From: Thalassolituus maritimus
GTDB taxonomy: Bacteria; Pseudomonadota; Gammaproteobacteria; Pseudomonadales; Oceanobacteraceae
NCBI RefSeq assembly: GCF_900156675.1
Contig: NZ_FTOH01000014.1
Coordinates: 1 to 52,572, forward strand
Length of the DNA: 52,572 bases
Direction of reading: 5' to 3'
Part shown: one piece after another, positions 20,726 through 35,046 of the stretch
Numbering within the stretch: position 1 is the first letter of the stretch
Layout: each line of letters begins with the position of its first letter
The notes under the pieces: model-generated
Database searches by the model: none
What the model was told of the DNA's origin: nothing
Seen by the model: only the letters and a program-made list of their open reading frames with translations
Translations under genes and position numbers: made by a program

Positions 20726-22816
20726 TCACACTCGCCGGAACGGAGGCAGAGAATCAAGTAATAACTGCCCGTATCGGGAAGACACCAATCTCTTATCGAG
20801 AATACTGACTTTGCCGTGATCGGATTCCTTACGGATCAGTCGGCCGCATGCCTGGATAAGCCGTATAGACGCCGCTGGTAGCGTTAACTCCATAAAAGGA
20901 TTGCGCCCCCGGCTCTCCATCCACTCCGATATGGCAGACTGGATAGGATCATCTGGAACAGCAAATGGAATCTTAACGATCACAACATGAGTTACGTACT
21001 CACCGGGTAAGTCGATCCCCTCGGCAAAGGATGCCAGTCCGAAGATCACATTTCCTTTCCCGTTATCAATGCGTTCCTTGTGACGACGTACGATTTCACT
21101 TTTGGGCAGGTAACCCTGACACAGGAGGTGTTCGTACCAGTCGCGAATAAAATAGTCTCTCGTCGCTTCTAGCTGTGCACGCGAACTAAAGAGCACAAGA
21201 GTGGCCTCATCTGGGTTCACGGCCTCTTTGAGCCAATTCTGAACGTCACTCTCGAACGCTTCGCTCTTTGGATCTGATGCCAGTTGAACCACTTCGAGCT
21301 GCCCGAGTTCCGGGTAGTTAAATGGGCTGGCTACACGTTCGTAGACCGCCCAGTCTGGCAGACCGGCTTCCCATTTCAGCGAGTTGAAACTATTCAGTGC
21401 CGTGAGTGTTGCCGAGGTAACAACAGCACCATAGCAACGACTCCATAGGTTCCTGCGCAGCTGCGCTGCCACTGAAATTGGCGACGCCGACAGGGAAATA
21501 TCCCAATCATCACCGTACGGACGCTTACTAAGCCACCGGGCCACAGGTAATTCGCCTTCCGCCTCTTCCGCCGCTATCCATGACAGAGCCTCTGACAGCT
21601 CTTCAGCCCGCGCCAACATAATCCCAACGGGTGCCTGCCAGGCCTCAGCGACCTCTCGCTGAAAGTCTCCAGTCTCATTCGGATCGAGAGACTTCTGCAG
21701 CATATCCGACATTTTATCGAGGCAATGGACAACAGGCTGCAAGGGGGCCTTCATTGTCTGTAGAAGCTCGCGGAGCGATTCGGGTAACACACCAAATTCA
21801 AAACGCTGACGATCTCTGTCCTGCATCAGGTCCATCACGAGTGGCCAGACAAGGCTCGCACTCTGGGACAACGCCTGAAGATTCGCTGGCATCTCTTGCA
21901 GCGAATGCATTAACCCTACGGGCATTCCGGCATCAGCAATAAATTGTTCGATGACTTTTTCCAGCTGTTTCAGCCATTGGCGTGTTGAGCGCACACCAAA
22001 TTCCAGCCGGAAGTGGTTCAGTGCTTTATCGGCGAGGTGATGCCCTTCATCAAACACATAAATGGTTTTCTCAGGCGCAGGCAAAATAGCACCACCACCG
22101 AGCGAGAGATCCGCAAGCACCAGGTCGTGGTTAGCGACGATGACATCAGCGTCTTCCATGGCGCTCCGCGCTTTGTAAAAAGCACAGTTCTGAAAATGGG
22201 GGCAACGACGGTTCGAGCATTCCCGGTGAGTCGCCGTCAGGTGGGACCATTGTTTATGCTCAATTTCATCATCCCAGCGATCCCGATCTCCATCCCAATC
22301 GCCGCTGCCGTATTTCATCAACATCTTTTCGTAGAGCTCGCGGTCCTGTTCTTCAGGCGTCTGCTCAAACAGGTCTACCGTAGACAGAATGCCGGAAAGT
22401 TGCTGCAAGGCTTTATCCAGCTTCGCCAGACACAAATATCGACCACGCCCTTTGGCTAGCGCGAAATTAAACGGTAGAGAGAGGTGTTTCTTCAGCGCTG
22501 GCAAATCCTTATCAAGGATCTGCTCCTGCAAAGCTACCGTAGCCGTCGAGACCAGTAACTTACGTTCTCGCTCAATGGCCACTGGTAATGAAGCAATCAG
22601 GTAAGCCAGAGTCTTACCAGTGCCGGTCCCCGCCTCTACGACTGCGATTCCCGCGTCGTTGTCGCGCTCGTCTTTTTCGCCTTCGCGAATGGAGCCCAAG
22701 GCTTTCGCGATTTCTGCAATCATCACACGCTGGCCATAGCGTGGACGTAATTCCAGTGCTTTGATCGCTTCGCGATACAGCGACTGAATACGCTCTTTTG
22801 TTTCTTTTTGCAGCAT
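20726..22816 (-). CDS. dinG: ATP-dependent DNA helicase DinG
   Basis: Superfamily 2 iron-sulfur DNA helicase (XPD/DinG group) that unwinds forked DNA, R-loops and D-loops. Walker A is VVEAGTGTGKTLAY, the DEAH-type box is VFDEGHHLAD, and four cysteines for the 4Fe-4S cluster are in RYLCLAK and CSNRRCPHFQNC. The C-terminal helicase motif is LIQACGRLIRKESDHG. The ATG at 22814-22816 gives 696 aa and shares one base with the gspB stop (TGATG), so translation is coupled; the longer in-frame extension to 22864 lies inside gspB. Pairing of a DNA-repair helicase with gspAB is unusual and probably only transcriptional. Confidence 0.93.
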   Translation of the reverse strand: MLQKETKERIQSLYREAIKALELRPRYGQRVMIAEIAKALGSIREGEKDERDNDAGIAVVEAGTGTGKTLAYLIASLPVAIERERKLLVSTATVALQEQILDKDLPALKKHLSLPFNFALAKGRGRYLCLAKLDKALQQLSGILSTVDLFEQTPEEQDRELYEKMLMKYGSGDWDGDRDRWDDEIEHKQWSHLTATHRECSNRRCPHFQNCAFYKARSAMEDADVIVANHDLVLADLSLGGGAILPAPEKTIYVFDEGHHLADKALNHFRLEFGVRSTRQWLKQLEKVIEQFIADAGMPVGLMHSLQEMPANLQALSQSASLVWPLVMDLMQDRDRQRFEFGVLPESLRELLQTMKAPLQPVVHCLDKMSDMLQKSLDPNETGDFQREVAEAWQAPVGIMLARAEELSEALSWIAAEEAEGELPVARWLSKRPYGDDWDISLSASPISVAAQLRRNLWSRCYGAVVTSATLTALNSFNSLKWEAGLPDWAVYERVASPFNYPELGQLEVVQLASDPKSEAFESDVQNWLKEAVNPDEATLVLFSSRAQLEATRDYFIRDWYEHLLCQGYLPKSEIVRRHKERIDNGKGNVIFGLASFAEGIDLPGEYVTHVVIVKIPFAVPDDPIQSAISEWMESRGRNPFMELTLPAASIRLIQACGRLIRKESDHGKVSILDKRLVSSRYGQLLLDSLPPFRRV

Positions 22817-23478
22817 CAGCGAATAGCCTTCCATCCACGCGTACGACCAATTACTACGGGCCACCCAGAAACGTCGAGCAAGATGCCGTCGCGCGTGATT
22901 TCCTTCAGGACTACACCATCCACCACTTGCTCACCTTCTCGCCAGACACGGTCATTCATAGTCACTGTTCGCTTAGCTGGTACAGAGCTGAATGTATGCC
23001 CTGTGATATTCAGATCCGGAATTCTCTCCAATGCTTCGAACGGTGCTCGCGCTTCTTTAAGAGGCGCTTTTGGCTCAACGTCGCTTTGTTCCGCTTCAAT
23101 ATCCTTACCTGCATTGTCTGCTGCAACGATTTGAGTATCAGGAAGCTCTGCCGTCGTCATAACCGCTGCAGGTTCTGAGTCCGTTTCAGAAAGCGAAGTC
23201 TCTTCTCCAGCCGATGGTGTAGCGCCCTGCTTGTCAGCGGGCGAAGAATAAAAGGCTGTAGCGATAGCACCTAAGATAAGCACAACGGCCAGAGCGGCAG
23301 AAATTCCCATGCGAGCAGAAGTATTACTGTCCGTATTACGTTGCTGCTCGTGCTCTGAAGCCACTTTTCCAGTCTCAGCAGATTCTGAGATCAGGCCCTT
23401 TTTAGGCGGCATTTGGGCCGGGTTGCGCTCATCCCGCTCTTGTTCGGATTTTTTCAATGCATCGAGGATGTATGACAT
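22816..23478 (-). CDS. gspB: type II secretion assembly protein GspB/ExeB
   Basis: Inner-membrane protein that works with GspA to insert the GspD secretin through peptidoglycan. The N-terminal cytoplasmic signature MSYILDALKKSEQER is typical, then comes a membrane helix (about residues 50-72) and a Pro/Glu/Ala-rich linker. The C-terminal T2SSB domain is in RIPDLNITGHTFSSVP and WREGEQVVDGVVLKEI. Length is 220 aa. The ATG starts one base after the gspA stop and the TGA overlaps the dinG ATG. Confidence 0.93.
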   Translation of the reverse strand: MSYILDALKKSEQERDERNPAQMPPKKGLISESAETGKVASEHEQQRNTDSNTSARMGISAALAVVLILGAIATAFYSSPADKQGATPSAGEETSLSETDSEPAAVMTTAELPDTQIVAADNAGKDIEAEQSDVEPKAPLKEARAPFEALERIPDLNITGHTFSSVPAKRTVTMNDRVWREGEQVVDGVVLKEITRDGILLDVSGWPVVIGRTRGWKAIR

Positions 23479-23479
23479 G

Positions 23480-24940
23480 CTACTGCCTCGCCTGCAGGTA
23501 CATCAGGGTTTTTGGCCCAATAATACGGTCAGCTTTTAAACCTTCAGCGATCTGAAATTCAGCGACCGCACGCTCCAGCAAAGGATCATAAAACTCTGGA
23601 TTAACCTCGACCTGCACACCACCTGGCCCAATGCTGGTCCATTCCTGATCCCAGCCTGCACCCAGACGCGACCGCACCCAACGAATGACCGATGCGGTTT
23701 CTCCCGGTTTGACAGCGCTGGTGTAGTCAGCAGGCGCCTGCCATAAAATCACGGCCTCACCGGCATAGCCTCTCTCGTATTCTTCAAGGTCATACCATTC
23801 TGCTTCTGCACCCCTGCTCCCCACTCTGACGACCGTGATCAGATTCAGCTCGCGCAATTCAGAGATATCCCAGTCGACCGGAATACAACGCCAACCTGAA
23901 GAGTCACAATTCGCAGCACCCTCAGTGCGGGAGGCCTCAAGTACTGCATACGGATCACTACGGTCTAATGAGACCGTCTTAAGTGCAGGAATATTCTGGT
24001 ACGCAATTACACCCGCAAAGACAACCACAGCAGCCGCGCAGAAAGCGAGTGCGCTTTTTAATATGGTTTTGCCTGAGGTCACTGCAATGCCAGCCGCCCC
24101 TTTTCCTACATGAACTGGAGGAACTGCATCATAATCTGCCCCAAGCACTTCAATAATCGCCTGACTTGCGATATCCGAACTGACCAGGTGACTGCCCGTG
24201 GCATAAGCACCCAATAGCGCTCTATCGCAAATACTGTTAATCAGCCGTGGAGTTCCCTCACTGGCCCGCCAGATAGTCTCGATCGCGGCAGGATCAAATA
24301 ACATCTGATTCCCGCCAGCGCAGACCAGGCGGTGCTCAACGTATTCGGAGGTTTCGGTCAGACTCAGCAAATCCAGGTGGTAACGAGCAGTAATGCGCTG
24401 ATTCAGCTGGCGTAGATCATGACGCTTAAGCAGATCGCGAAGCTCTGGCTGCCCTACCAGAACGAGGGTTAGTAGCTTTTCTCGGTCTGTTTCCAGATTA
24501 GTCAGCAGGCGAACCTGCTCCAATAGCGCGACAGGCATGGACTGGGCTTCATCAATCACGCAAATAACACGCTGATGTTTCCCGTAGAAGTTCACCAGTG
24601 CTTCATTGATGGATGCGTAGACTTCCTTGAGCGATGCGCTTCTTTCATAGGCGATGCCAAGGTCATCACAGATGCTTTGCATTAACTCTATAGGCGAGAG
24701 CTGCGGATTAAATATATATGCAACATGATCACCTTCTGGGATAGACGCCATAAGCGCCCGGCACAGTGTCGTTTTACCCGTACCCACTTCGCCAGTAAGG
24801 CAGATAAGCCCGCCCTGATCCGTCAGGGCATAGCTCAGGTGTGCCAACGCTTCCTGATGCCCAGGTGACGGGTACAGAAAATCCGGATCCGGAGAGATGG
24901 TAAATGGCAGTTTGTCTAAGCCAAAGTACTCAAGGTACAT
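23480..24940 (-). CDS. gspA: AAA ATPase GspA/ExeA
   Basis: Membrane-anchored ATPase partner of GspB in type II secretion assembly. The N-terminal signature MYLEYFGLDKLPFTISPDP is followed by an AAA domain with Walker A TGEVGTGKTTLCRAL and the Walker B-like VICVIDEAQSMP. A membrane helix lies at about residues 290-310, and a C-terminal peptidoglycan-binding repeat (DPLLERAVAEFQ, GPKTLMYLQ) is at about 440-485. The ATG at 24940 follows AGGA and gives 486 aa; an upstream frame to 24985 is unsupported. The peptidoglycan-binding domain fits localisation at the cell wall. No other gsp gene is in this window. Confidence 0.93.
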   Translation of the reverse strand: MYLEYFGLDKLPFTISPDPDFLYPSPGHQEALAHLSYALTDQGGLICLTGEVGTGKTTLCRALMASIPEGDHVAYIFNPQLSPIELMQSICDDLGIAYERSASLKEVYASINEALVNFYGKHQRVICVIDEAQSMPVALLEQVRLLTNLETDREKLLTLVLVGQPELRDLLKRHDLRQLNQRITARYHLDLLSLTETSEYVEHRLVCAGGNQMLFDPAAIETIWRASEGTPRLINSICDRALLGAYATGSHLVSSDIASQAIIEVLGADYDAVPPVHVGKGAAGIAVTSGKTILKSALAFCAAAVVVFAGVIAYQNIPALKTVSLDRSDPYAVLEASRTEGAANCDSSGWRCIPVDWDISELRELNLITVVRVGSRGAEAEWYDLEEYERGYAGEAVILWQAPADYTSAVKPGETASVIRWVRSRLGAGWDQEWTSIGPGGVQVEVNPEFYDPLLERAVAEFQIAEGLKADRIIGPKTLMYLQARQ

Positions 24941-25056
24941 GCTGCATCCTGTCTGATTGATGCCGGCATGATACCGGAATTGCACGTCTGACGCAGTGGT
25001 GACTTAGCCTGAAATCACGGGGGATCTCTCACCAGCGACTGATCAACGAAGACCAG

Positions 25057-26145
25057 TCACCACCGATATTGATACGACAACCCAATACGGGCATCGCGGA
25101 CTTGTTTTATATTGAGATCATCTACGATGTAGCTGGCAGAGAGCCCCTGCCAGTAGAAAGCAGCACCGAGCTGGCGCTTCGACGTTCCAACAACACCCAC
25201 TTTGCCGCTACCGAATGGGTAACGTTTCTCGATGGACAGATTCCGGTAAACGTCATACCAGTAATACTGAACGTATACATCCAGCGGCTTATAAACCGCA
25301 TTCGCGACAACTGTCGACTTAATTGATGTTTCCAGCGCCTTCGGATTGTCATCGCCACTGGCAGCGCCGCCACTCGAACAGACAGGATTAGTAACCTCAC
25401 CGACTTCTGCGCATATTGAGCGGTGTGCAGAGTTACCCATATCGAGAAGATTCCAGAGATCTCTCACTTGCAGGGCAAGTTCCAGTTCATCCGTCGGGGC
25501 CCAAGCTCCTGAAAGGGACGCGCTGTATCCAAACCACTCCTGAGATGCACTGCCTTGCGGGTCTTCATATTCAGGAAGCGTATCGAAGGAAGGAAAGCGA
25601 TACTCGTCAAAGTAGTACGACAGGCTTGCCGAAAAGTTAGAACCCTCGTCAGCGAAGCTTCGTCCAACAAATGAACCAAACTGATAATGGATCAGCTTGT
25701 ACAGCATAAAGGCGGGTGACACCGACCAATTCTCACCCTCAAAGCGATAAGAACCACCAATCCCACGAGCCTGGAATACCTTGGCAACCAGGTTAAGGTC
25801 TCTGTCCTGCTGAGTTTCTATACCAAACTCAGCGTCCAGGTAGACGGCTGTTGTGTCAGGAGAAAACTTGAGTGAATAGAACCAGCGACGTTCCGCATTT
25901 AACGTGAAGTTCCGGTAAGACGCGGATGCAGCGAGACTCATATCCGCGTACGCGTACTCGCCAGTATCGGCATCCTGCTCCCACCCTTCAATCATCTGAT
26001 CGATCGGAACAGGCTCAGAGCTTGCCTCAGCAGACAAGGAAAATCTGACATCGCCAGAGTAATCAGAAGGCTGCCCTGCTGTCGCATCAGCAATATTCGC
26101 TATTGCGATAGCAGAAGACAGCAGTATGACCTTCTTAATCACCAA
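25057..26145 (-). CDS. outer-membrane beta-barrel protein, unknown family (about 362 aa)
   Basis: I do not recognise the family. A signal peptide (MVIKKVILLSSAIAIANI, cleavage near ATA-G) is followed by alternating aromatic and polar strands such as SLAASASYRNFTLNAER and ARIGLSYQYRW. The last residue is Trp, the typical C-terminal signal of BAM-assembled barrels. A Cys pair (ICAEVGEVTNPVC) in a loop could form a disulfide. The start codon is TTG (26145) or the GTG just after it; both lie inside the end of the giant lipoprotein gene (11-bp overlap), so the two are translationally coupled. A role as a membrane partner of that lipoprotein is inferred from this coupling. Confidence 0.75.
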   Translation of the reverse strand: MVIKKVILLSSAIAIANIADATAGQPSDYSGDVRFSLSAEASSEPVPIDQMIEGWEQDADTGEYAYADMSLAASASYRNFTLNAERRWFYSLKFSPDTTAVYLDAEFGIETQQDRDLNLVAKVFQARGIGGSYRFEGENWSVSPAFMLYKLIHYQFGSFVGRSFADEGSNFSASLSYYFDEYRFPSFDTLPEYEDPQGSASQEWFGYSASLSGAWAPTDELELALQVRDLWNLLDMGNSAHRSICAEVGEVTNPVCSSGGAASGDDNPKALETSIKSTVVANAVYKPLDVYVQYYWYDVYRNLSIEKRYPFGSGKVGVVGTSKRQLGAAFYWQGLSASYIVDDLNIKQVRDARIGLSYQYRW

Positions 26146-29100
26146 TAATCATCCAGGTGCCATCAACGAAACGGGCGACAAATACGTTCTCGCGCTCTTC
26201 GCGAATTGTGCCTACGAGTGCACCACGTACCGTCAGATAGGCGACTGCTTCACAGCCATCATTTGAATCTGCATCTGTTGGCGCTGCTGCTGACAATTTA
26301 TCGCGGTCGTTAAAGCCGCAGGCCGTTTCATCGTTGCCTTGCGTGTATTCCGTACGAGTAGCTATTTGAGCAAGAACCGATTGATCAGTACCACCCATAG
26401 ATACGTTTGAGCGGGAAATCAACCAGTAACCACGTTCGACTTCGATGGTTTTCAGTCCGCCTTCCCCATCACTGATCTGCTCTTCCGAGACGGCCAATTC
26501 GAGATAAAAGCCCTGTGCATCTCCGCCAGCAACAACACCTAACTGGTTGCTGATATTTTCATAAGTTTCCTCGGAGCCGAAGCCGTACGAGGCACTCAAT
26601 GCGAACTCGTCCTCAACCTGTCGTTCAAGCGCTAGCTCGAAGATAACAGGAATCAGCGCTTCGTCTTCTGGGTCTTTGAGGTAACTTTCTGCAACGGCAG
26701 TAAGACGATCTATCCCCAGCTCTATATCATCATAGAAGGTACCGCTGAACGGCCCATACTCTACGCCTTCTGTCAGACCCTGATACTCAGTACCAGATAC
26801 AATTGCAGACGTAGACAAATCGATTTCATATATCCCGTTGCCAGGCACGCTGTATCTGGATAAAACATTATTTTCGAAATTTCTCTCGAGAAGCTCATCA
26901 AGGGTTACTTCTCCGGCCAGCTCAATAACTGTATCGCAACTCTGCTCAACTCTTTCATCATCCCCGTCCATATCGACATCCACCCAGGATACGTTACAGG
27001 ATTCGGAACGGGTCGTATTGGTACTAGAGTCGTAGGGGTACAACTTGATCCGACTAATGAAGTCCCTCCCACGAAGCTCTTCATCAAAATATTCTATAAC
27101 CCGACCATCCGATAAGACGGTCTGGTCGCGATACAGGCTTTCAACGAGATCTGTAATTTCCGTCGGAGCATCTGGACGCCCAAGGAAAAACTCATGGGTA
27201 GCAGGCCATTTACTGGTTGGGTAATACGATGAAGAATTCGTCGTTCTGAGCTGAACGTTCAGATCAGTCCTGTTTTCTGCATCCGGTTCCAGCGTGGACC
27301 TTGCACGGACGACAAATGTAACTGGGTTATACCTGGTCTGGGAGGCATCATCGAGCGGGTCTTTGACCCCTACCAGGTTGGCCTCAATGAGCGCGTTGAA
27401 TTCATGTTCACCATTATCGCCCGCCTGGGCGCCATCGATATTGCCTTCAAACCTGACCAACGGCCAGACAATCGCAATCTGCGTTGGCGCAACGTGTGAA
27501 GGATCTGAGTCATCCAGAAATGATCCAGCAGGAGGCGACGCGTAGCTATCCTCATAAAACACCCGAACATAAGGACGAGTAGTGATGCTTCCGTCAGAGA
27601 TGGCCTCCGTGTACCAGTAAAGCTTTTTACCATTACCTAGTGCCAAAGCATTCTTAATTTCGGCTGGAATAGCATCAACCCCCTCATCAGGGTTATCAGC
27701 CGACTCTATTTCGAAATCAAACACATTATAGAGCCCAGCATCGGCGTCAGTGGTCTCAATCGGACGCATGATAAGACGAAGTGAACCGTCAATAAGTACA
27801 CGGTCACTAGGAAGCCCTGCCGAATCGCTCTCATCAGTTTCGATGGCGAACCCCACTGGCGGGGTGCAATCACCCTCTCCGAACTCACAACGAGCAAGGA
27901 TCTCAGCACCTTCCAATATTTCATTGAGAACACCAGTAGGCCCAAATGCCAGGTCTGCCACTGTGTTCAGCGCTGTTTCATGCGCCAGATAATATGAATC
28001 AACGCGACGTCCATGAACAGGATCGATGAAGCTGGGCTGATTTTCATCATAGCCCCAGAAATTCTTCACTGCCGCAGTAAGGTCCATCAGAAAGTATTTG
28101 CTGTTTTCTATTGCAGTACGCCAACCCGCTAACCTGGCTGGCACATCGACATCTACCGATGTTTCAACGTCCTCTCTCATAGAGGCTGCGACGCCGTCGA
28201 GCCGTTCGAGAGCTGTGACTGCACCAGCAGGGACTCTGGCACCAAGCCCGTTAAAGTAATTGATGTTATCCCGGAGTATTGTGCTGGCCGTAGAGAAAAT
28301 CTCGAACTTAGTTACAGCATCTGGGGACTCACTTTTCTCCAACAACTGCCCGCGCCGATCAATTACATCACCGGTAATTTCACCCAGTTTCGTTACGAAG
28401 TCGGTGTTAGCCGAATCAGCGAGATACGGCAAAGCAGCAATTAACGCACCGTAATAGACCCCTTCGACCAGAGCATCACCTGAAACTGTCTCAATTTGCG
28501 TAATCTGACTGGGGGCAACTACAGGCGACGAAATAATATCCGTCAGACCGAAGAGCTCAGAGACGTGAAGATTGGCCAACTCCATCGTGTATTGGTTATA
28601 CACACCTGTTTTCGCTTTCTCGATGTCATCCAACACAGCCTGATTGATGTCCGCCCGGTCGTCTGCAGAAAGGCCGTTCGTGACTGCGTCGATATAAACC
28701 GTTCTGGCCATACTGCTTGCAATATCAGTAATCCAGTTGACGTTGACCGTCATGCCGTCGAGCAATTCACCGACGCCAGCCCTGACATCGAGATCATCTG
28801 GAAGAGGAACGTATTTTCCGTAAGCGAGCGAGTCGCACCCCTGTACTCGCTCACAGCGATAGAACACATCCCCGTTGTCCGTATTCGCGATAAAGATAAA
28901 CGATCCTGATACGTCTTCGGCCTCTGCCGTCAGCTCGTAAGTACCCGTTTGAGAAGACTGCGAAGCTGCACCATCGTATACAAGATTACCGCTATCGTTT
29001 TCTATGAGCGTCGGGCCACCCTCATAGTTGATCGGTGTTGCACTGATTCGGCTACCCCAGGTCGCCGTCCCTATTCGACCGCTAATACCATAAGTCTCCT

Positions 29101-29194
29101 CTTCACCGCTGACGGTGCGGGTAGAACTGGAGTTCCCTGAACAGGCCTGAAGGAGCACGCCGATAAGGATTACTGAGGTAAGCTTATGAACCAT
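26135..29194 (-). CDS. giant lipoprotein, paralogue 1 (1019 aa)
   Basis: Lipoprotein signal MVHKLTSVILIGVLLQAC (lipid-modified Cys18) with Ser-Gly after it, not Asp, so outer-membrane sorting is expected. The mature chain is acidic and strand-rich with no membrane helix. It shares ordered features with the 978-aa protein at 32110-35046: a Cys motif (YRCERVQGCDSLAYG), an LFGLTDI...YYGALIA segment in the first third, and a C-terminal domain ending FVARFVDGTWMIIGD. The C-terminal Val-Asp-Gly-Thr-Trp appears to be a repeat-domain signature. The downstream barrel gene overlaps it. Function unknown; surface adhesion, polymer handling or sensing are all possible. Confidence 0.85.
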   Translation of the reverse strand: MVHKLTSVILIGVLLQACSGNSSSTRTVSGEEETYGISGRIGTATWGSRISATPINYEGGPTLIENDSGNLVYDGAASQSSQTGTYELTAEAEDVSGSFIFIANTDNGDVFYRCERVQGCDSLAYGKYVPLPDDLDVRAGVGELLDGMTVNVNWITDIASSMARTVYIDAVTNGLSADDRADINQAVLDDIEKAKTGVYNQYTMELANLHVSELFGLTDIISSPVVAPSQITQIETVSGDALVEGVYYGALIAALPYLADSANTDFVTKLGEITGDVIDRRGQLLEKSESPDAVTKFEIFSTASTILRDNINYFNGLGARVPAGAVTALERLDGVAASMREDVETSVDVDVPARLAGWRTAIENSKYFLMDLTAAVKNFWGYDENQPSFIDPVHGRRVDSYYLAHETALNTVADLAFGPTGVLNEILEGAEILARCEFGEGDCTPPVGFAIETDESDSAGLPSDRVLIDGSLRLIMRPIETTDADAGLYNVFDFEIESADNPDEGVDAIPAEIKNALALGNGKKLYWYTEAISDGSITTRPYVRVFYEDSYASPPAGSFLDDSDPSHVAPTQIAIVWPLVRFEGNIDGAQAGDNGEHEFNALIEANLVGVKDPLDDASQTRYNPVTFVVRARSTLEPDAENRTDLNVQLRTTNSSSYYPTSKWPATHEFFLGRPDAPTEITDLVESLYRDQTVLSDGRVIEYFDEELRGRDFISRIKLYPYDSSTNTTRSESCNVSWVDVDMDGDDERVEQSCDTVIELAGEVTLDELLERNFENNVLSRYSVPGNGIYEIDLSTSAIVSGTEYQGLTEGVEYGPFSGTFYDDIELGIDRLTAVAESYLKDPEDEALIPVIFELALERQVEDEFALSASYGFGSEETYENISNQLGVVAGGDAQGFYLELAVSEEQISDGEGGLKTIEVERGYWLISRSNVSMGGTDQSVLAQIATRTEYTQGNDETACGFNDRDKLSAAAPTDADSNDGCEAVAYLTVRGALVGTIREERENVFVARFVDGTWMIIGD

Positions 29195-29286: not shown

Positions 29287-29315
29287 AAAAAAACCCGGCA
29301 TTTGCCGGGTTTTTT
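29287..29315 (-). terminator. rho-independent terminator after glcB
   Basis: Perfect CCCGGCA/TGCCGGG stem (29294-29300 with 29303-29309), flanked by A-tract and T-tract on opposite sides, 18 bp beyond the glcB stop. It separates glcB from the giant lipoprotein gene, which is on the same strand. Confidence 0.92.
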
Positions 29316-29332: not shown

Positions 29333-31507
29333 TTACTGAGCTTTGAACTTCAGACGGTATGCGTGCAGCAGCGGCTCGGTATAACCACTTGGCTGCTCTT
29401 TACCTTTGAAGATCAGGTCAGACGCCGCTTTAAACGCGATAGTGTCGAAGCCTGGCGCCATATTGATATAAGAAGCGTCACCCTCATTCTGACCATCAAC
29501 AACCGCAGCCATGCGCTTCAGGCTGTCTTCAACCTGTTCGCGGGTACAGATACCGTGTTCCAGCCAGTTAGCAACGTGCTGAGAAGAGATACGCAGCGTT
29601 GCGCGGTCTTCCATCAGGCCAACGTTGTTGATGTCTGGCACTTTAGAACAACCAACACCTGCATCAACCCAGCGAACAACGTAACCCAGGATACCCTGAC
29701 AGTTGTTGTCGATTTCCTTCTGAATCTGTTCTTCAGTCAGAGCTGAAGCTTCTTCAGCGGTCATCAGAGGGATGCTCAGGATGTCATCAACAGACGCGTG
29801 CTCACGGCTTTTCAGTTCGTTCTGAACAGCGAATACGTCTACCTGGTGATAGTGCATAGCGTGCAGAGCAGCGGCAGTCGGAGATGGAACCCATGCGGTG
29901 TTCGCACCTGACTTAGGATGGCCGATCTTCTGCTCCATCATCATGCCCATCTCATCAGGGATAGGCCACATGCCTTTACCGATCTGAGAACGACCCTGGA
30001 GGCCAGTTTCCAGACCAGTATCAACGTTCCAGTTTTCGTAGGCGTTGATCCAGGTCTGCTGCTTCATGACAGTCTTAGGTACAAACGGACCTGCCAGCAT
30101 AGAGGTGTGGATTTCGTCACCAGTACGGTCCAGGAAGCCAGTGTTGATGAAGACAACACGGTCTTTCGCAGAACGGATACATTCTTTCAGGTTAACCGTG
30201 GTACGACGCTCTTCGTCCATGATGCCCATCTTCATAGTGAAGCGTGGCAGACCCAGTGCGTCTTCGATACGACCGAACAGTTCGTTGGCGAATGCCACTT
30301 CTTCTGGACCGTGCATCTTAGGCTTAACGATGTTTACAGAACCGGTAGTCGAGTTCTGGAACGGAGAGTTACCCTTCAGGTCGTGCATAGCGATCAGAGT
30401 AGTCATCATGCCGTCCATGATGCCTTCTGGGATCTCACTGCCGTCAGCCAGCAGGATCGCAGGGTTAGTCATCAGGTGACCCACGTTACGAACGAACAGC
30501 ATTGAGCGACCTTTCAGCTTAACGGTTTCACCGTTCAGGCCAGTGTACTCACGATCTGGGTTCATAGTACGGGTGAAAGTCTTGCCGCCCTTGGTTACTT
30601 CTTCCGCCAGGTCGCCTTTCATCAGGCCCAGCCAGTTACCGTAGGTCACGACTTTGTCTTCGGCGTCAACAGCAGCAACAGAGTCTTCACAGTCCATAAT
30701 GGTGGTTAGTGCTGCTTCCATCAGAACGTCTTTTACTCCAGCAGCGTCGGTTGAACCGATTGGGCTGGTTGCGTCGATCTGAATTTCGAAGTGCAGGCCG
30801 TTGTTAACCAGCAGAATCGCTTCTGGTGCAGCCATTTCGCCTTTAAAGCCAACCAGCTGAGAAGCATCTTTCAGGCTGGTAGTGCTGCCGTCTTTCAGCG
30901 TAACGACCAGTTTACCTGCGTCGATAGCGTACTTAGTGCTGTCAGCGTGATCGCCAGCAGCCAGTGGGGCTGATTCGTTCAGGAAGTTACGCGCATAAGC
31001 GATAACTTTGTCACCACGTACTTTGTTGTAGCCCTGACCTTTCTCAGCACCGTCTTCTTCAGAAATGACGTTAGTGCCGTAAAGAGCATCGTACAGGGAG
31101 CCCCAACGCGCGTTCGCAGCGTTCAGAGCGAAACGAGCATTCATAACCGGTACTACCAGCTGAGGACCCGCCATCTGGCCAATTTCTGGCTCTACGTTTG
31201 AGGTAGTTGCTTCGAAGTCTTCGCCTTCTGGCAGCAGATAACCGATTTCCTGCAGGAACGCTTTGTATTCTGCAGCGTTGTGAGCCTGACCTTTACGCTC
31301 AGTGTGGTAAGCATCGATTTTGGCCTGCAGATCATCACGCTTAGCCAGCAGCGCCTTGTTCTTTGGAGCCAGTTCATTGGCAATAGCATCAAAGCTCGCC
31401 CAGAACGCATCCTGTTCAATACCAGTGCCTGGCATTGCTTTGTCATTGATGAAATCGTACAGCTCCTGGGCGATCTGGAGTCCACCCTTCTGAACGTATT
31501 CTGTCAT
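29333..31507 (-). CDS. glcB: malate synthase G
   Basis: Condenses glyoxylate with acetyl-CoA to malate in the glyoxylate shunt, needed for growth on acetate and fatty acids. At 724 aa it is the G isoform (E. coli 723), not the shorter A form. Conserved segments include [19 protein letters not shown] and [12 protein letters not shown] (catalytic Arg/Glu region), HKVNTSML-equivalent [12 protein letters not shown] and the C-terminal [20 protein letters not shown]. No aceA (isocitrate lyase) is nearby. It sits alone between the two giant lipoprotein genes. Its presence fits a lipid- or alkane-using lifestyle, as does the lipase near 48 kb. Confidence 0.97.
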
Positions 31508-31842
31508 TGTTTAGCCTCAACTCTTTTGGGGACACAGCCAAATGTACGGCTGCATCTTAGACCGGTGAAATTTCAGGGCCGGGAGTATAACGCAACTGTT
31601 TTCGTATCGCGACCACGTATCGCAGACACCCCCTCTCCGACTCCGTGCCAGATATTCCCGGGCAGCCCCTCAAAAACCTCCATACCGTTGCCCGCCAAAA
31701 GCAATACAAATCCTATACAACAAATATACAAGGTGTTTATAATGACTCAGGAGCTTGGCCGCACCCGAAGTAACTGACATTGACTCTGCCGTTAGAAGTC
31801 TGACTTACAACCAGATCTGACGCGGCGCACAGGAGAACCGAT
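31508..31842. promoter_or_regulatory. divergent intergenic region, glcB / 72-aa gene
   Basis: No sizeable gene. It must hold the glcB promoter (minus) and that of the 72-aa gene (plus), but I could not settle either. At 31741-31776 there is an 11-codon ORF (MTQELGRTRSN) preceded by AAGGTG, which may be a leader peptide or a decayed start; the rest shows nothing clear. Confidence 0.4.
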
Positions 31843-32061
31843 ATGGCTTCGAAGAAAGGTGCAGATAGACGTAAAGCAAGTCCCGAAGAGCTTCGTCAAC
31901 AACTGGAAGCTGACGTACAGGCTTACCTCACGAGCGGCGGAAAGATTCACCGCATTAAAGAAGGAATTAGTGGGGAGACCGGCTGGAAGCGCCCGCGCAA
32001 CGGATACAATCCCAATACACGGGTGAATATACAGCTTCCTATCTCCTACGGAACACTCTGA
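31843..32061 (+). CDS. small basic hypothetical protein, possible SutA-like
   Basis: A 72-aa protein: Lys/Arg-rich N terminus (MASKKGADRRKASPEELR), a helix, then DVQAYLTSGGKIHRIKEGIS and a Pro/Asn tail. The YLxxGGKIxxI element recalls the middle of the RNA-polymerase-binding protein SutA of Pseudomonas (EFLSRGGKVQEI), but SutA has a long acidic N terminus that is absent here. It is plausibly a small nucleic-acid- or polymerase-associated protein. It is conserved enough in form (GGAGAA-type ribosome site, ATG at 31843) to be a real gene. Divergent from glcB. Confidence 0.65.
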   Translation: MASKKGADRRKASPEELRQQLEADVQAYLTSGGKIHRIKEGISGETGWKRPRNGYNPNTRVNIQLPISYGTL

Positions 32062-32082
32062 TTCAACACGGGAACCCCAATA

Positions 32083-32101
32083 GCACCGGCACTGCCGGTG
32101 C
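32083..32101. terminator. hairpin between convergent genes (weak terminator)
   Basis: Perfect GCACCGGC/GCCGGTGC stem with a 3-nt loop, midway between the 72-aa gene (plus) and the 978-aa lipoprotein gene (minus). No strong T-run follows on either strand, so it may be rho-dependent or a shared weak terminator. Confidence 0.5.
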
Positions 32102-32109
32102 TTGCAGAA

Positions 32110-35046
32110 TCAGTTCAGTGACTCCCAGGTGCCATCGATATAACGGATGATCCAGACACCGCTTTCATAGACAATTTTTCCGTAAACTTTATCGCGATAA
32201 TTCAGCACGTAGACGGCTTCCTGAGGATCGCGACTGAACGAAGGCTCGGCCGTGTTCGACACAACACAGCGACGGTACTCACCGTCATCACCCACGATAT
32301 AACGGTAAACCGGCGCACCGTCGACCAAATCAAGGTTGCTGCCCAGGATAATTTCGCTGTCGACCGTGTCGGTTGTGCCATCTGCGAGAGACAGTTCAAC
32401 ACCGTCTTTAAATACCGAAAGGCTCGTCGCTTCAACCGTACCGCTCTCAGTGCTGAAATCGAAAATCAGACGATCAAGGTCAGCGCCCACGCCCTGATAG
32501 AGACCCGTAGTATTGACGCTCGTATAGTCATGTGACACTGAAAGCGACACATCAACCTGTTCACTGTATGGGGCTGTTACCTGGATATCGACAAGCGTTT
32601 TCGGTTCAGTCGCCGTTGAGTAATCGAGCACGACTTCACTGGTAAAGCGCGCACTCGACAGGCCGAGTTGAGCGCTTCTGAACAAAGTACCATCCAGAGA
32701 TGTCAGTGATGCTGGAAGCGATGAAAGTGTCAGACACCCCTGCGAATCCGCTGCCTCAACCGGAAATTCAACGAAGTACACACCCTGCCCCGGTACTTCC
32801 GGGCGGGAGAAAACGCCAATCTGCCACAACTCATTCACCGCATTCTGAAGGTCCTGTTCAGCATTTAACCGCTGTTTCGGCTGGCAACGCTCAATCACTG
32901 GCGACTCAGCAGTACCGCTCAGTAAGCATGCCTCGTAGTCATGTGTAGCGATCAGCTCTTCTGTATCGCCATCACCATCAACGTCGCTCACATCTTCACG
33001 TCGCACCGTAGGATAGAAGCGATAGCGATAGTCATCGCCACCCTCAACGAAGTAGTCAAGGTATTGAGTTTCGCGCCCGTTAACGATTTGCGTACCAGTA
33101 CGGTACTGAACCAGCCCACTAGCAACTGTCCCTTCAGGGTAAAGGGGGGCCCGCTCAAAGAATGCATTGAACGAAGCAAACTCAGACTCTGGGTAATAAT
33201 CTGCTGCCTGATTGGCATTGGCCGTGAGAAATACCGTCGTAATGTTTGAATCCGTGCCGTTATCGTCTTCATAAACATCAGAGATACGACTATTCAGAAC
33301 CACTTCTGAGATATTAAAACGACGCCCGGAGACACCGTCAGGGTCATCGACGCCCTGGTACAGGATACTGAATGCACCCGTAAGCTCAGTTTCGTTAGCG
33401 CTACCAACATCACCTGCATCGTAAAGGGTGAAATCGGTCCAACGAATCTGGTAGGCCAATGCCGGGGCAGACACCTCATCCTGAAGAACCGTCACGGTAT
33501 TTTCATAGAAAATTCGCAAACCACTTGGGCTGCTGATTTCGTCATCACTGTAGGTGTGATCCAGCTCGAGACGCAGACCATTGGCAACTAAAGTCCCGGC
33601 CATCAGAATATCTATTGCGCGGGAACTGGTCGGAGCATCATCTTCATCAAGCAAATTAATGTCCGCAACGGCCTGTGATACTTCAAAATCACCGCCGTTA
33701 AGCGTCAGTACAGGCGCAGAGTAGGTATGACTCTGATACCACTCCCACTCAGGGCTGACTGATGGGCAGCCACTGTTGAGATAGCAATCCCGGTAGAAAC
33801 CAGCGATTTCCGACACTGCGGTTGTGATTTCATCGAGATTTTCAGCATTGTCTTCACCAACACCCCTCAACAGATCGGCGTAGCTATCCAGTTGCTCCCG
33901 GTAACCGTCTTCGAAAAAGCTGTTGCCGTAGTCGCGAAGTTCCTGCACAAAGGCTTTCGTGCGCTGAAGGCCTAACTGATAATCCTCCAGCTCGTCACCC
34001 AGCAGCGAGCTCAAAGAAGCCGGTGTAATCGACGTCAGGTCCCCATCTACAAACGCATCGCGCTCCGTCTGTAGTTGAGCAACAACACTGGCAACATAAC
34101 CAGACACGGTTGAATTCGTGACATTTAAATCATTCAGGTTACTGATGGCTGCGTCATAAAGATCGTAAAGAGCGAGAGTCTGTGCTCCACCGCGCTGCAT
34201 CAACTGGCCGTCATTTGCCACCAGGTCCGCAGCAACCGCTGAAGCGAAAGACGGCAGATCTGTCGTTGATGTATAGGACAATTCATAGGACTGCCACGCT
34301 GCTAAGAGAGCACCATAGCGAATTGAATATTGTGCTTCTGTCTGGTTAGCGCCCCGCCACTCCTCTATTTGAGTCAGGTCTGCGGGTTCCCGACTCTGGA
34401 TAGAATCGATACCAAACAAGCGTGAAACCTGTGATTCGGCTTGAAGTGTCGAATACACAGAATAGAAACCAGTATCTAACCAACCTGCATCCTGCTGGGT
34501 ACCAGAATCTTCACTGTATACACGATCGAAAGCGAGCTGAGCTGCCAGATCAGTGAGTGGCGTGATTCGAATGCGCTGGCCATCCTCGATGCCAGCAGCA
34601 ACCGATCGCCAGCCCGGTGCCGCGACAATACTGTATTCAGAACCAAAAGAAACAGAGCCACAGCCACTGACGACCTGGCAGCGGCGTGTCGTCGATGTGC
34701 CGTCATTGCTTTCGCGCCCGTAGACATCGAGATAGACGATTTCCGTACCATCTGCAGTTACAACCGCTTGCCCTTCGTCATCCGTGGTGAAGCGGGCAAA
34801 GTTCAGGACGCCCGGCTGCACCTCAGAAGGCATTCCGGTCTCGTCGACAGTCACCCGCCTGAGCATGGCTTCATTGAAATCTTCCTGACCAACCTGCACA
34901 TCCAGATTGATGGTTGTTACAGACGAGCTGCTGTCATTATCACTGCAGGCTGCCAGCGCAGCGACCATCGGGATAACAACCCAGCGGGAGAAGGAAATAT
35001 TGTCGGGAAACGCTAAACGACTGACAGAAAAAAGCGGTCTGGTCAC
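32110..35046 (-). CDS. giant lipoprotein, paralogue 2 (978 aa)
   Basis: The start is GTG at 35044-35046, with a long n-region before the lipobox LAAC (lipid Cys34, followed by Ser-Asp-Asn). The mature chain is acidic and mostly beta, like the 1019-aa protein at 26135-29194. Shared landmarks are RRCQVVSGCGSVSFG, SRLFGIDSI...RYGALLAA, an EWEWYQSHTYSAPVLTLNG segment, and the terminal IIRYIDGTWESLN. Asp right after +2 Ser is not the +2 Asp that retains lipoproteins in the inner membrane. Overall identity looks low, so the duplication is old. Unlike paralogue 1 it has no barrel gene beside it. Function unknown. Confidence 0.85.
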   Translation of the reverse strand: MTRPLFSVSRLAFPDNISFSRWVVIPMVAALAACSDNDSSSSVTTINLDVQVGQEDFNEAMLRRVTVDETGMPSEVQPGVLNFARFTTDDEGQAVVTADGTEIVYLDVYGRESNDGTSTTRRCQVVSGCGSVSFGSEYSIVAAPGWRSVAAGIEDGQRIRITPLTDLAAQLAFDRVYSEDSGTQQDAGWLDTGFYSVYSTLQAESQVSRLFGIDSIQSREPADLTQIEEWRGANQTEAQYSIRYGALLAAWQSYELSYTSTTDLPSFASAVAADLVANDGQLMQRGGAQTLALYDLYDAAISNLNDLNVTNSTVSGYVASVVAQLQTERDAFVDGDLTSITPASLSSLLGDELEDYQLGLQRTKAFVQELRDYGNSFFEDGYREQLDSYADLLRGVGEDNAENLDEITTAVSEIAGFYRDCYLNSGCPSVSPEWEWYQSHTYSAPVLTLNGGDFEVSQAVADINLLDEDDAPTSSRAIDILMAGTLVANGLRLELDHTYSDDEISSPSGLRIFYENTVTVLQDEVSAPALAYQIRWTDFTLYDAGDVGSANETELTGAFSILYQGVDDPDGVSGRRFNISEVVLNSRISDVYEDDNGTDSNITTVFLTANANQAADYYPESEFASFNAFFERAPLYPEGTVASGLVQYRTGTQIVNGRETQYLDYFVEGGDDYRYRFYPTVRREDVSDVDGDGDTEELIATHDYEACLLSGTAESPVIERCQPKQRLNAEQDLQNAVNELWQIGVFSRPEVPGQGVYFVEFPVEAADSQGCLTLSSLPASLTSLDGTLFRSAQLGLSSARFTSEVVLDYSTATEPKTLVDIQVTAPYSEQVDVSLSVSHDYTSVNTTGLYQGVGADLDRLIFDFSTESGTVEATSLSVFKDGVELSLADGTTDTVDSEIILGSNLDLVDGAPVYRYIVGDDGEYRRCVVSNTAEPSFSRDPQEAVYVLNYRDKVYGKIVYESGVWIIRYIDGTWESLN

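Follow-up and report, generated by a model that had tools for sequence, protein, structure and literature searches.

To our knowledge, delivery of large lipoproteins to the cell surface in Gammaproteobacteria is known for few systems (Slam of the type XI secretion system, T11SS; the type II secretion system, T2SS). In Bacteroidota, the type IX secretion system (T9SS), which has many other parts, includes PorV, a stand-alone barrel that binds the C-terminal domain of the cargo. Here, we analyse a pair of genes of Thalassolituus maritimus, which encode a 1019-residue predicted lipoprotein (LpA) and a 362-residue predicted outer-membrane barrel. They lie in a 52,572-nucleotide stretch of DNA (contig NZ_FTOH01000014.1, positions 1 to 52,572, forward strand; hereafter the window). 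The two genes are paired, the pair is conserved, and the C-terminal part of the lipoprotein is closely linked to the barrel. We tentatively propose that the two proteins form an outer-membrane module of two partners. The barrel would bind the C-terminal part of LpA, probably for surface display.

A conserved lipoprotein–barrel gene pair

The LpA gene (26135–29194, minus strand) has an ATG start. The signal peptide of LpA ends with the lipobox LLQAC-SGN (assigned by eye). Judged by eye and by pattern, the lipobox cysteine with serine and no aspartate at position +2 agrees with an outer-membrane lipoprotein. Throughout this work, lipoprotein signal peptides were called by eye or pattern, without a signal-peptide predictor, and genes at the loci were called mechanically. 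LpA is composed of an N-terminal part and a C-terminal beta part associated with the barrel. The last 180 residues (26135–26677, minus strand), which end VGTIREERENVFVARFVDGTWMIIGD, represent this C-terminal part. The barrel gene (25057–26145, minus strand) encodes a protein with a signal peptide and a C-terminal tryptophan (...YQYRW). It starts at a TTG or at a GTG one codon on, of which the GTG is likelier, and the overlap with the LpA gene is 11 bp from the TTG and 8 bp from the GTG. The open reading frames bear out the first-pass annotation, in which a 1019-residue lipoprotein gene overlapped by 11 bp the gene of a 362-residue barrel ending in tryptophan. Translational coupling, claimed there as well, is not general, as the two genes are 70–108 bp apart in 9 of 20 loci.

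A hairpin resembling a terminator, with a T run (29287–29315, minus strand; recognised by eye), is positioned 3' of the malate synthase G gene and before LpA. Because it separates malate synthase G from LpA, the LpA and barrel genes are probably a transcription unit of their own. A promoter and terminator scan gave no excess over shuffles, and the hairpin is absent from its list.

Near full-length homologues of LpA and the barrel are adjacent in all nine searched genomes of the genus, the window's included, indicating that the pair is more than chance. The barrel profile is positive in 48 of 390 genomes of the order and in 16 of 369 genomes of the class (the window's own included in both), and in 1 of 299 genomes of the phylum sample, which is the window's own and for which the number of genomes outside the class is not given. 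No barrel member outside Gammaproteobacteria was seen in the order, class and phylum samples. The nearest named barrel records are from Oleibacter marinus, an Oceanospirillaceae metagenome-assembled genome and Thalassolituus.

The genus, order and class matches were de-duplicated to 95 barrel genes, with two pieces of one gene (G256:C17) counted once and a weak match (G042:C45) dropped. A family lipoprotein lies upstream on the same strand in 79 of these. For 66, the lipoprotein profile matches within 3 kb upstream; the other 13 were added after inspection of the locus (nine class loci, G361, G343:C92, G181:C177 and G054:C153). The partner in G361 is a weak match, counted as linked for its lipobox and its C-terminal match. 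The 95 do not include pairs to which only the lipoprotein led (L186, L187, L194–L197). The barrels are not independent samples, 40 of the 95 being from the window's family (f1). Linkage is found for 28 of these 40 and for 51 of the 55 outside f1. Of the 26 genome families with a barrel in the samples, 25 have a linked pair. With 79 of 95 barrels linked, the pairing is well supported and the pair is a real conserved unit; the first-pass annotation had named, as refuting its reading, a barrel gene that mostly occurs in genomes without the lipoprotein, and this is not what is found.

The lipoprotein is found in nearly all barrel-positive genomes. Its profile (A7) matches 75 of the 76 barrel-positive genomes tested (76 of 85 were tested, G004 and G005 being among the nine others). 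Of 45 genomes assigned to the barrel-negative set, 14 are matched as well; four of these (G021, G037, G039 and G043) proved to have the pair, and several others match with the N-terminal part only. Five fetched loci of a further family (f24) have 48.8–55.3% G+C, for which reason an assignment of f24 to Acinetobacter was dropped. A gene fusion in G481, suspected from a 1186-residue open frame, was ruled out, as the locus has two overlapping genes.

The part of the lipoprotein that accompanies the barrel

The C-terminal 140–180 residues or so of the lipoprotein accompany the barrel, and the N-terminal part also exists without a barrel. To locate these parts, the lipoprotein profile was split into N-terminal, middle and C-terminal pieces, and these were run against the genes of 87 stretches, one of which is the window (some stretches overlap or repeat a genome; L201 has no gene at threshold). 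In loci other than those of f1, all genes that have the C-terminal piece precede a barrel or a family lipoprotein that leads to a barrel, a result biased by the fact that the loci were mostly fetched around barrels. The exceptions in f1 are LpB, a paralogue of LpA described below, and the unlinked copies of two genera (g2 and g6). Where a gene matches the N-terminal piece but not the C-terminal one (L188, L189, L192, L193, L199 and L200), the next gene is a barrel in none of the six cases; this count leaves out two genes at stretch edges (the first gene of L173, and L198). In one partner of 463 residues (L138), only the C-terminal piece is retained. Tandem lipoproteins ahead of a single barrel are found at L136, L141, L172, L173 and L184. 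Such a distribution, in which the C-terminal part tracks the barrel and the N-terminal part varies, follows T11SS-like logic, with exceptions.

A profile of the C-terminal part (A8) matches 13 of the 369 class genomes at E ≤ 1e-5, all 13 of which are barrel-positive. Sixteen of the 19 matches at this threshold are directly before a barrel or in tandem before one, and three barrel-positive genomes of genus g218 are missed. Since A8 includes rows from the matched genomes, it is informative mainly by its near absence elsewhere. In a non-circular test, a C-terminal profile made from order-level proteins only recovers 12 of 13 class-level paired loci.

The close gene pairing and the short shared C-terminal part would also fit a lipoprotein on the periplasmic side that assembles or plugs the barrel, as LptE does in LptD. 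We consider this unlikely. The paired lipoproteins are mostly 700–1190 residues long, with variable N-terminal parts and tandem copies, which is unusual for an assembly factor, and three genera retain the barrel without a neighbouring lipoprotein.

The N-terminal unit is present in much larger proteins. A predicted lipoprotein of 4176 residues is encoded on contig C15 of the window's genome (L182, 363–12893, plus strand). It has 30 Big_9 (Ig-like) stretches and other Ig/cadherin-like repeats, beyond which an LpA-type N-terminal unit is positioned at residues 3366–3572. Long open frames of 3605–4713 residues with the same unit are found in G001, G002, G006 and G008. A lipid-anchored chain of 4176 residues is hard to fit in the periplasm, and from this length we infer that a surface place is favoured for the N-terminal unit.

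Barrel relatives and neighbouring genes

Two lines of evidence support the barrel assignment, namely beta-type alternation in excess of shuffles and weak matches of relatives to outer-membrane barrel families. The alternation is 0.853, compared with 0.576 (s.d. 0.051) over 300 profile shuffles, the membrane-facing values of Trp and Tyr being assigned by us. Along the profile, 103 of 354 windows exceed the shuffles' 90th percentile, where 35.4 are expected. About 12–14 strands can be counted by eye. The alternating strands, the signal peptide and the C-terminal aromatic residue agree with an outer-membrane β-barrel; the aromatic end is present in the window protein and most of f1, not in all distant members. 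The window protein contains the motif SEPVPIxxMxxGWxxxxxxGxYAYA, part of which is kept by relatives. Hand-drawn loops show slightly higher conservation than the remainder (0.422 versus 0.390, p 0.05), a difference on which we do not rely.

The first-pass annotation recognised neither protein family and, in accordance, no scanned member is above a curated threshold of Pfam or NCBIfam. Pfam has no match at E ≤ 1 for the barrel, LpA or LpB, and NCBIfam only one weightless match (0.059), to the barrel. Ten distant relatives (seven lipoproteins and three barrels) have at best sub-threshold matches. A Pfam scan of 31 barrels, in which the HMMER filters remove most matches above 0.1, lists 10 families. 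Below threshold, the nearest Pfam family of the barrel is DUF5723 (PF18990), which is touched by 5 of the 31 (best E 8.9e-5, 22.8 bits; gathering score 26.8). MipA, TraF_2, Porin_2 and OMP_b-brl are touched by single barrels, with weak, sub-threshold matches. The corresponding scan of 30 lipoproteins at E ≤ 1 lists 20 families, among them CarboxypepD_reg (transthyretin-like) in three lipoproteins (best E 1.3e-5, sub-threshold); in the one shown residue by residue, the match falls in the N-terminal part. With five queries of the PDB, the one significant match is that of a signal peptide to AcfD (E 8.3e-4), and the best PDB matches of the C-terminal profile are antibody-type chains (E 0.032 and up). 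No match was found for the three window proteins in PHROGs, for the window's pair in a near search of E. coli, or for the distant barrel of L132 in a plasmid protein search.

LpA has a paralogue, LpB (32110–35046, minus strand; 978 residues; lipobox LAAC-SDN), which aligns with it at BLASTP E 2e-25 and 24% over 948 columns. The gene between them encodes malate synthase G (29333–31507, minus strand; TIGR01345, 1145.5 bits), and this arrangement of malate synthase G between two lipoprotein genes was seen in f1 only. The lipoprotein–barrel pair of the first-pass annotation is real, but its lipoprotein is not single: LpB, about 3 kb upstream, went unmentioned there. A 602-bp gap (31508–32109) separates LpB from malate synthase G. 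It contains a short frame (31843–32061, plus strand), which has a counterpart in L074 and L080 (one genome).

On the other side, the barrel is followed by a gene for an ExeA/GspA-like ATPase (23480–24985, minus strand; TIGR03015, 259.4 bits, below the cut-off of 324.5), the start of which is probably an ATG near 24940. The ATPase gene adjoins the barrel in most fetched f1 loci. Next to it is the gene for GspB, a type II secretion assembly factor (22816–23478, minus strand; T2SSB, 5.8e-16; NF037978, 63.6 bits, below the cut-off of 100). In f1, gene order is widely conserved as LpB, malate synthase G, LpA, barrel, GspA-like ATPase, GspB, DinG. Departures from it are L083, without gspA and gspB, L087, without LpB, L085, with other genes in between, and genera g2 and g6, without an adjoining LpA. 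The gspB and gspA-like genes of the window (22816–24985) are on a different contig from the genome's best GspD match (C7).

In g2 (Oceanobacter-type; L076, L077, L078 and L098), the unlinked barrel is near an opposite-strand gene of one cluster, whose member in L095 is a Na+/H+ exchanger (Pfam). In g6 (L091, 3–15898; L093, 2–14257), an unlinked LpA-like lipoprotein gene adjoins that of a large protein with cytochrome c matches. Its other side has genes for a release factor, a class II (D,K,N-type) tRNA synthetase, a uracil-DNA glycosylase, three DUF6160 proteins and a lectin/laminin-G/Calx-beta protein. The genes of L091 were identified by Pfam, those of L093 by clusters.

The gsp genes after the barrel raise the question of whether the barrel is an accessory of the T2SS, with LpA as a substrate. 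The barrel–gspA–gspB–dinG order in most fetched f1 loci is consistent with this, as is a full-length GspD above its family cut-off in the window's genome. We nevertheless regard a role in type II secretion as very improbable. With the window genes as queries (E ≤ 1e-4), homologues of gspA, gspB, dinG and malate synthase G are found in none of the 35 fetched loci outside f1 (each of at most 20 kb; the lipoprotein is missing from three), and even the f1 locus L083 is without gspA and gspB at this place. Nor was a third gene constant across families seen in the inspected loci. Therefore, we take the module to be two genes and the T2SS link to be family-specific.

The main rival explanation, which we regard as possible with rather low confidence, is an uptake complex: a surface lipoprotein would bind a ligand and pass it to the barrel, in the outline of SusCD or TbpAB, or the pair would serve hydrophobic uptake, as Marinobacter AupA/AupB. 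The nearest named records (Oleibacter and Thalassolituus) are from a hydrocarbon-degrading group. In f1 loci, the two lipoprotein genes flank that of malate synthase G, an enzyme of the glyoxylate shunt, but its absence from the 35 loci outside f1 and the hairpin after it here speak against this reading, as does the want of a constant third gene. The comparison with FadL is suggestive only. In hhalign, a profile of 33 barrels outside f1 (A10) aligns with ten FadL-type proteins at 75.6% probability, out of register and with no unrelated barrel as control; LpA proteins, the non-barrel control, reach 0.4%. Profile A6 has one PDB match, 3dwo ('Probable outer membrane protein', E 0.34, not significant), which we take to be FadL-type and which vanishes with A10. 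One of the 31 barrels touches TraF_2 (E 0.0098), presumably FadL-like, but neither Toluene_X/FadL nor a TonB receptor family is listed for any of them.

The proposed module and known systems

In the proposed two-partner module, LpA would be made as an outer-membrane lipoprotein, given serine and no aspartate at +2, and its C-terminal beta part would dock on the barrel. The long N-terminal part would be the carrier of the actual function. Most likely, the barrel would accept the C-terminal part and carry or hold the lipoprotein at the cell surface. One barrel may serve several lipoproteins, LpA and LpB here and the tandem copies elsewhere. We infer that the two proteins bind physically, that the lipoprotein is at the surface, and that the target of the barrel is the lipoprotein, as opposed to a solute on which both would act.

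Several observations weigh against this proposal. Sixteen barrels are unlinked. Genus g2 has seven of them, g6 five and g218 three; the last is an additional copy in G256. The g2 and g6 genomes have family lipoproteins elsewhere, with linked second pairs in G009, G016, G024 and G013, and in the three g218 genomes the lipoprotein matches are weak at best (1.3e-6, 4.0e-6 and none). The C-terminal part is not strictly confined to pairs. A8 is marginal in two barrel-less class genomes (G689, 2.0e-4; G430, 8.7e-4), and G613 has two further A8 matches that do not adjoin its barrel. The L192 protein, with no adjoining barrel, has a weak C-terminal A7 match at 739–816, and its tail, like that of the 4176-residue protein, resembles the C-terminal motif by eye. 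Conversely, a 487-residue partner (L170) has only the middle piece at threshold. Mirror-tree distances give no separation of the C-terminal from the N-terminal part: the correlation with the barrel is 0.64 for the C-terminal part and 0.66 for the N-terminal part (partial, 0.31 and 0.38). Finally, the known translocating barrels of Slam-type logic have TPR or POTRA parts, and no such match was found for the 31 barrels in Pfam.

It is possible, though doubtful at present, that the pair is a previously undescribed two-partner display system for giant lipoproteins in Gammaproteobacteria. Its free-standing barrel, which has neither TPR nor POTRA parts, would recognise a short C-terminal domain and move the lipoprotein through, or hold it at, the outer leaflet. 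In the open-access literature, we found no paper whose title or abstract describes the LpA–barrel pair. In the available text of a T. oleivorans proteome paper (PMC6304351), 'malate synthase' is absent from the main text and nothing attributable to the locus was seen. A conserved pair without a curated family name, whose C-terminal part predicts its barrel, is a directly testable candidate, and profiles of the lipoprotein and the barrel would allow such gene pairs to be annotated jointly.

Typical T11SS cargo is smaller than lipoproteins of the LpA kind. T11SS is similar in that the gene of an outer-membrane barrel is close to that of a lipoprotein whose N-terminal part varies and whose C-terminal beta domain is shared (PMC12282271 and PMC9100927). 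DUF560/Slam is not among the families listed for the 31 barrels in Pfam, the window barrel having none, and TbpBBD or another lipoprotein C-terminal β-barrel domain is not among the 20 families of the 30 lipoproteins. Unlike Slam, the window barrel has no TPR domain: its first alternating stretch is at residues 32–40, no TPR family is listed, and the 10 residues or so (by eye) between the signal peptide and the first strand leave no room for one. On these comparisons, the barrel appears not to belong to the T11SS/Slam family, though alike in logic.

DUF5723 is a barrel-sized family of unknown function from Bacteroidota with a barrel fold. Three segments align with it at similar positions (offsets of 10–35), together covering 72–376 of the 376 profile positions, but the best barrel score is below the gathering score, as given above. 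The name DUF5723 is absent from the open-access papers searched. AupA/AupB resembles the pair in being an operon of two genes that includes an outer-membrane barrel and is found in marine hydrocarbon degraders; it differs in that AupA is FadL-like and comes first, whereas AupB is an inner-membrane protein (Marinobacter; available text of PMC5989066). None of the 31 barrels matches PF03349 (Toluene_X/FadL); as a control, PF03349 proteins are found elsewhere in 6 of 8 barrel-positive genomes. In contrast to SusCD and TbpAB, no barrel or plug family of TonB-dependent receptors is listed for the 31 barrels, and 362 residues are too short for such a receptor. The pair resembles PorV and T9SS cargo, compared by description only, in combining a stand-alone barrel with a C-terminal cargo domain. 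The LpA–barrel pair would be a new family with a known logic.

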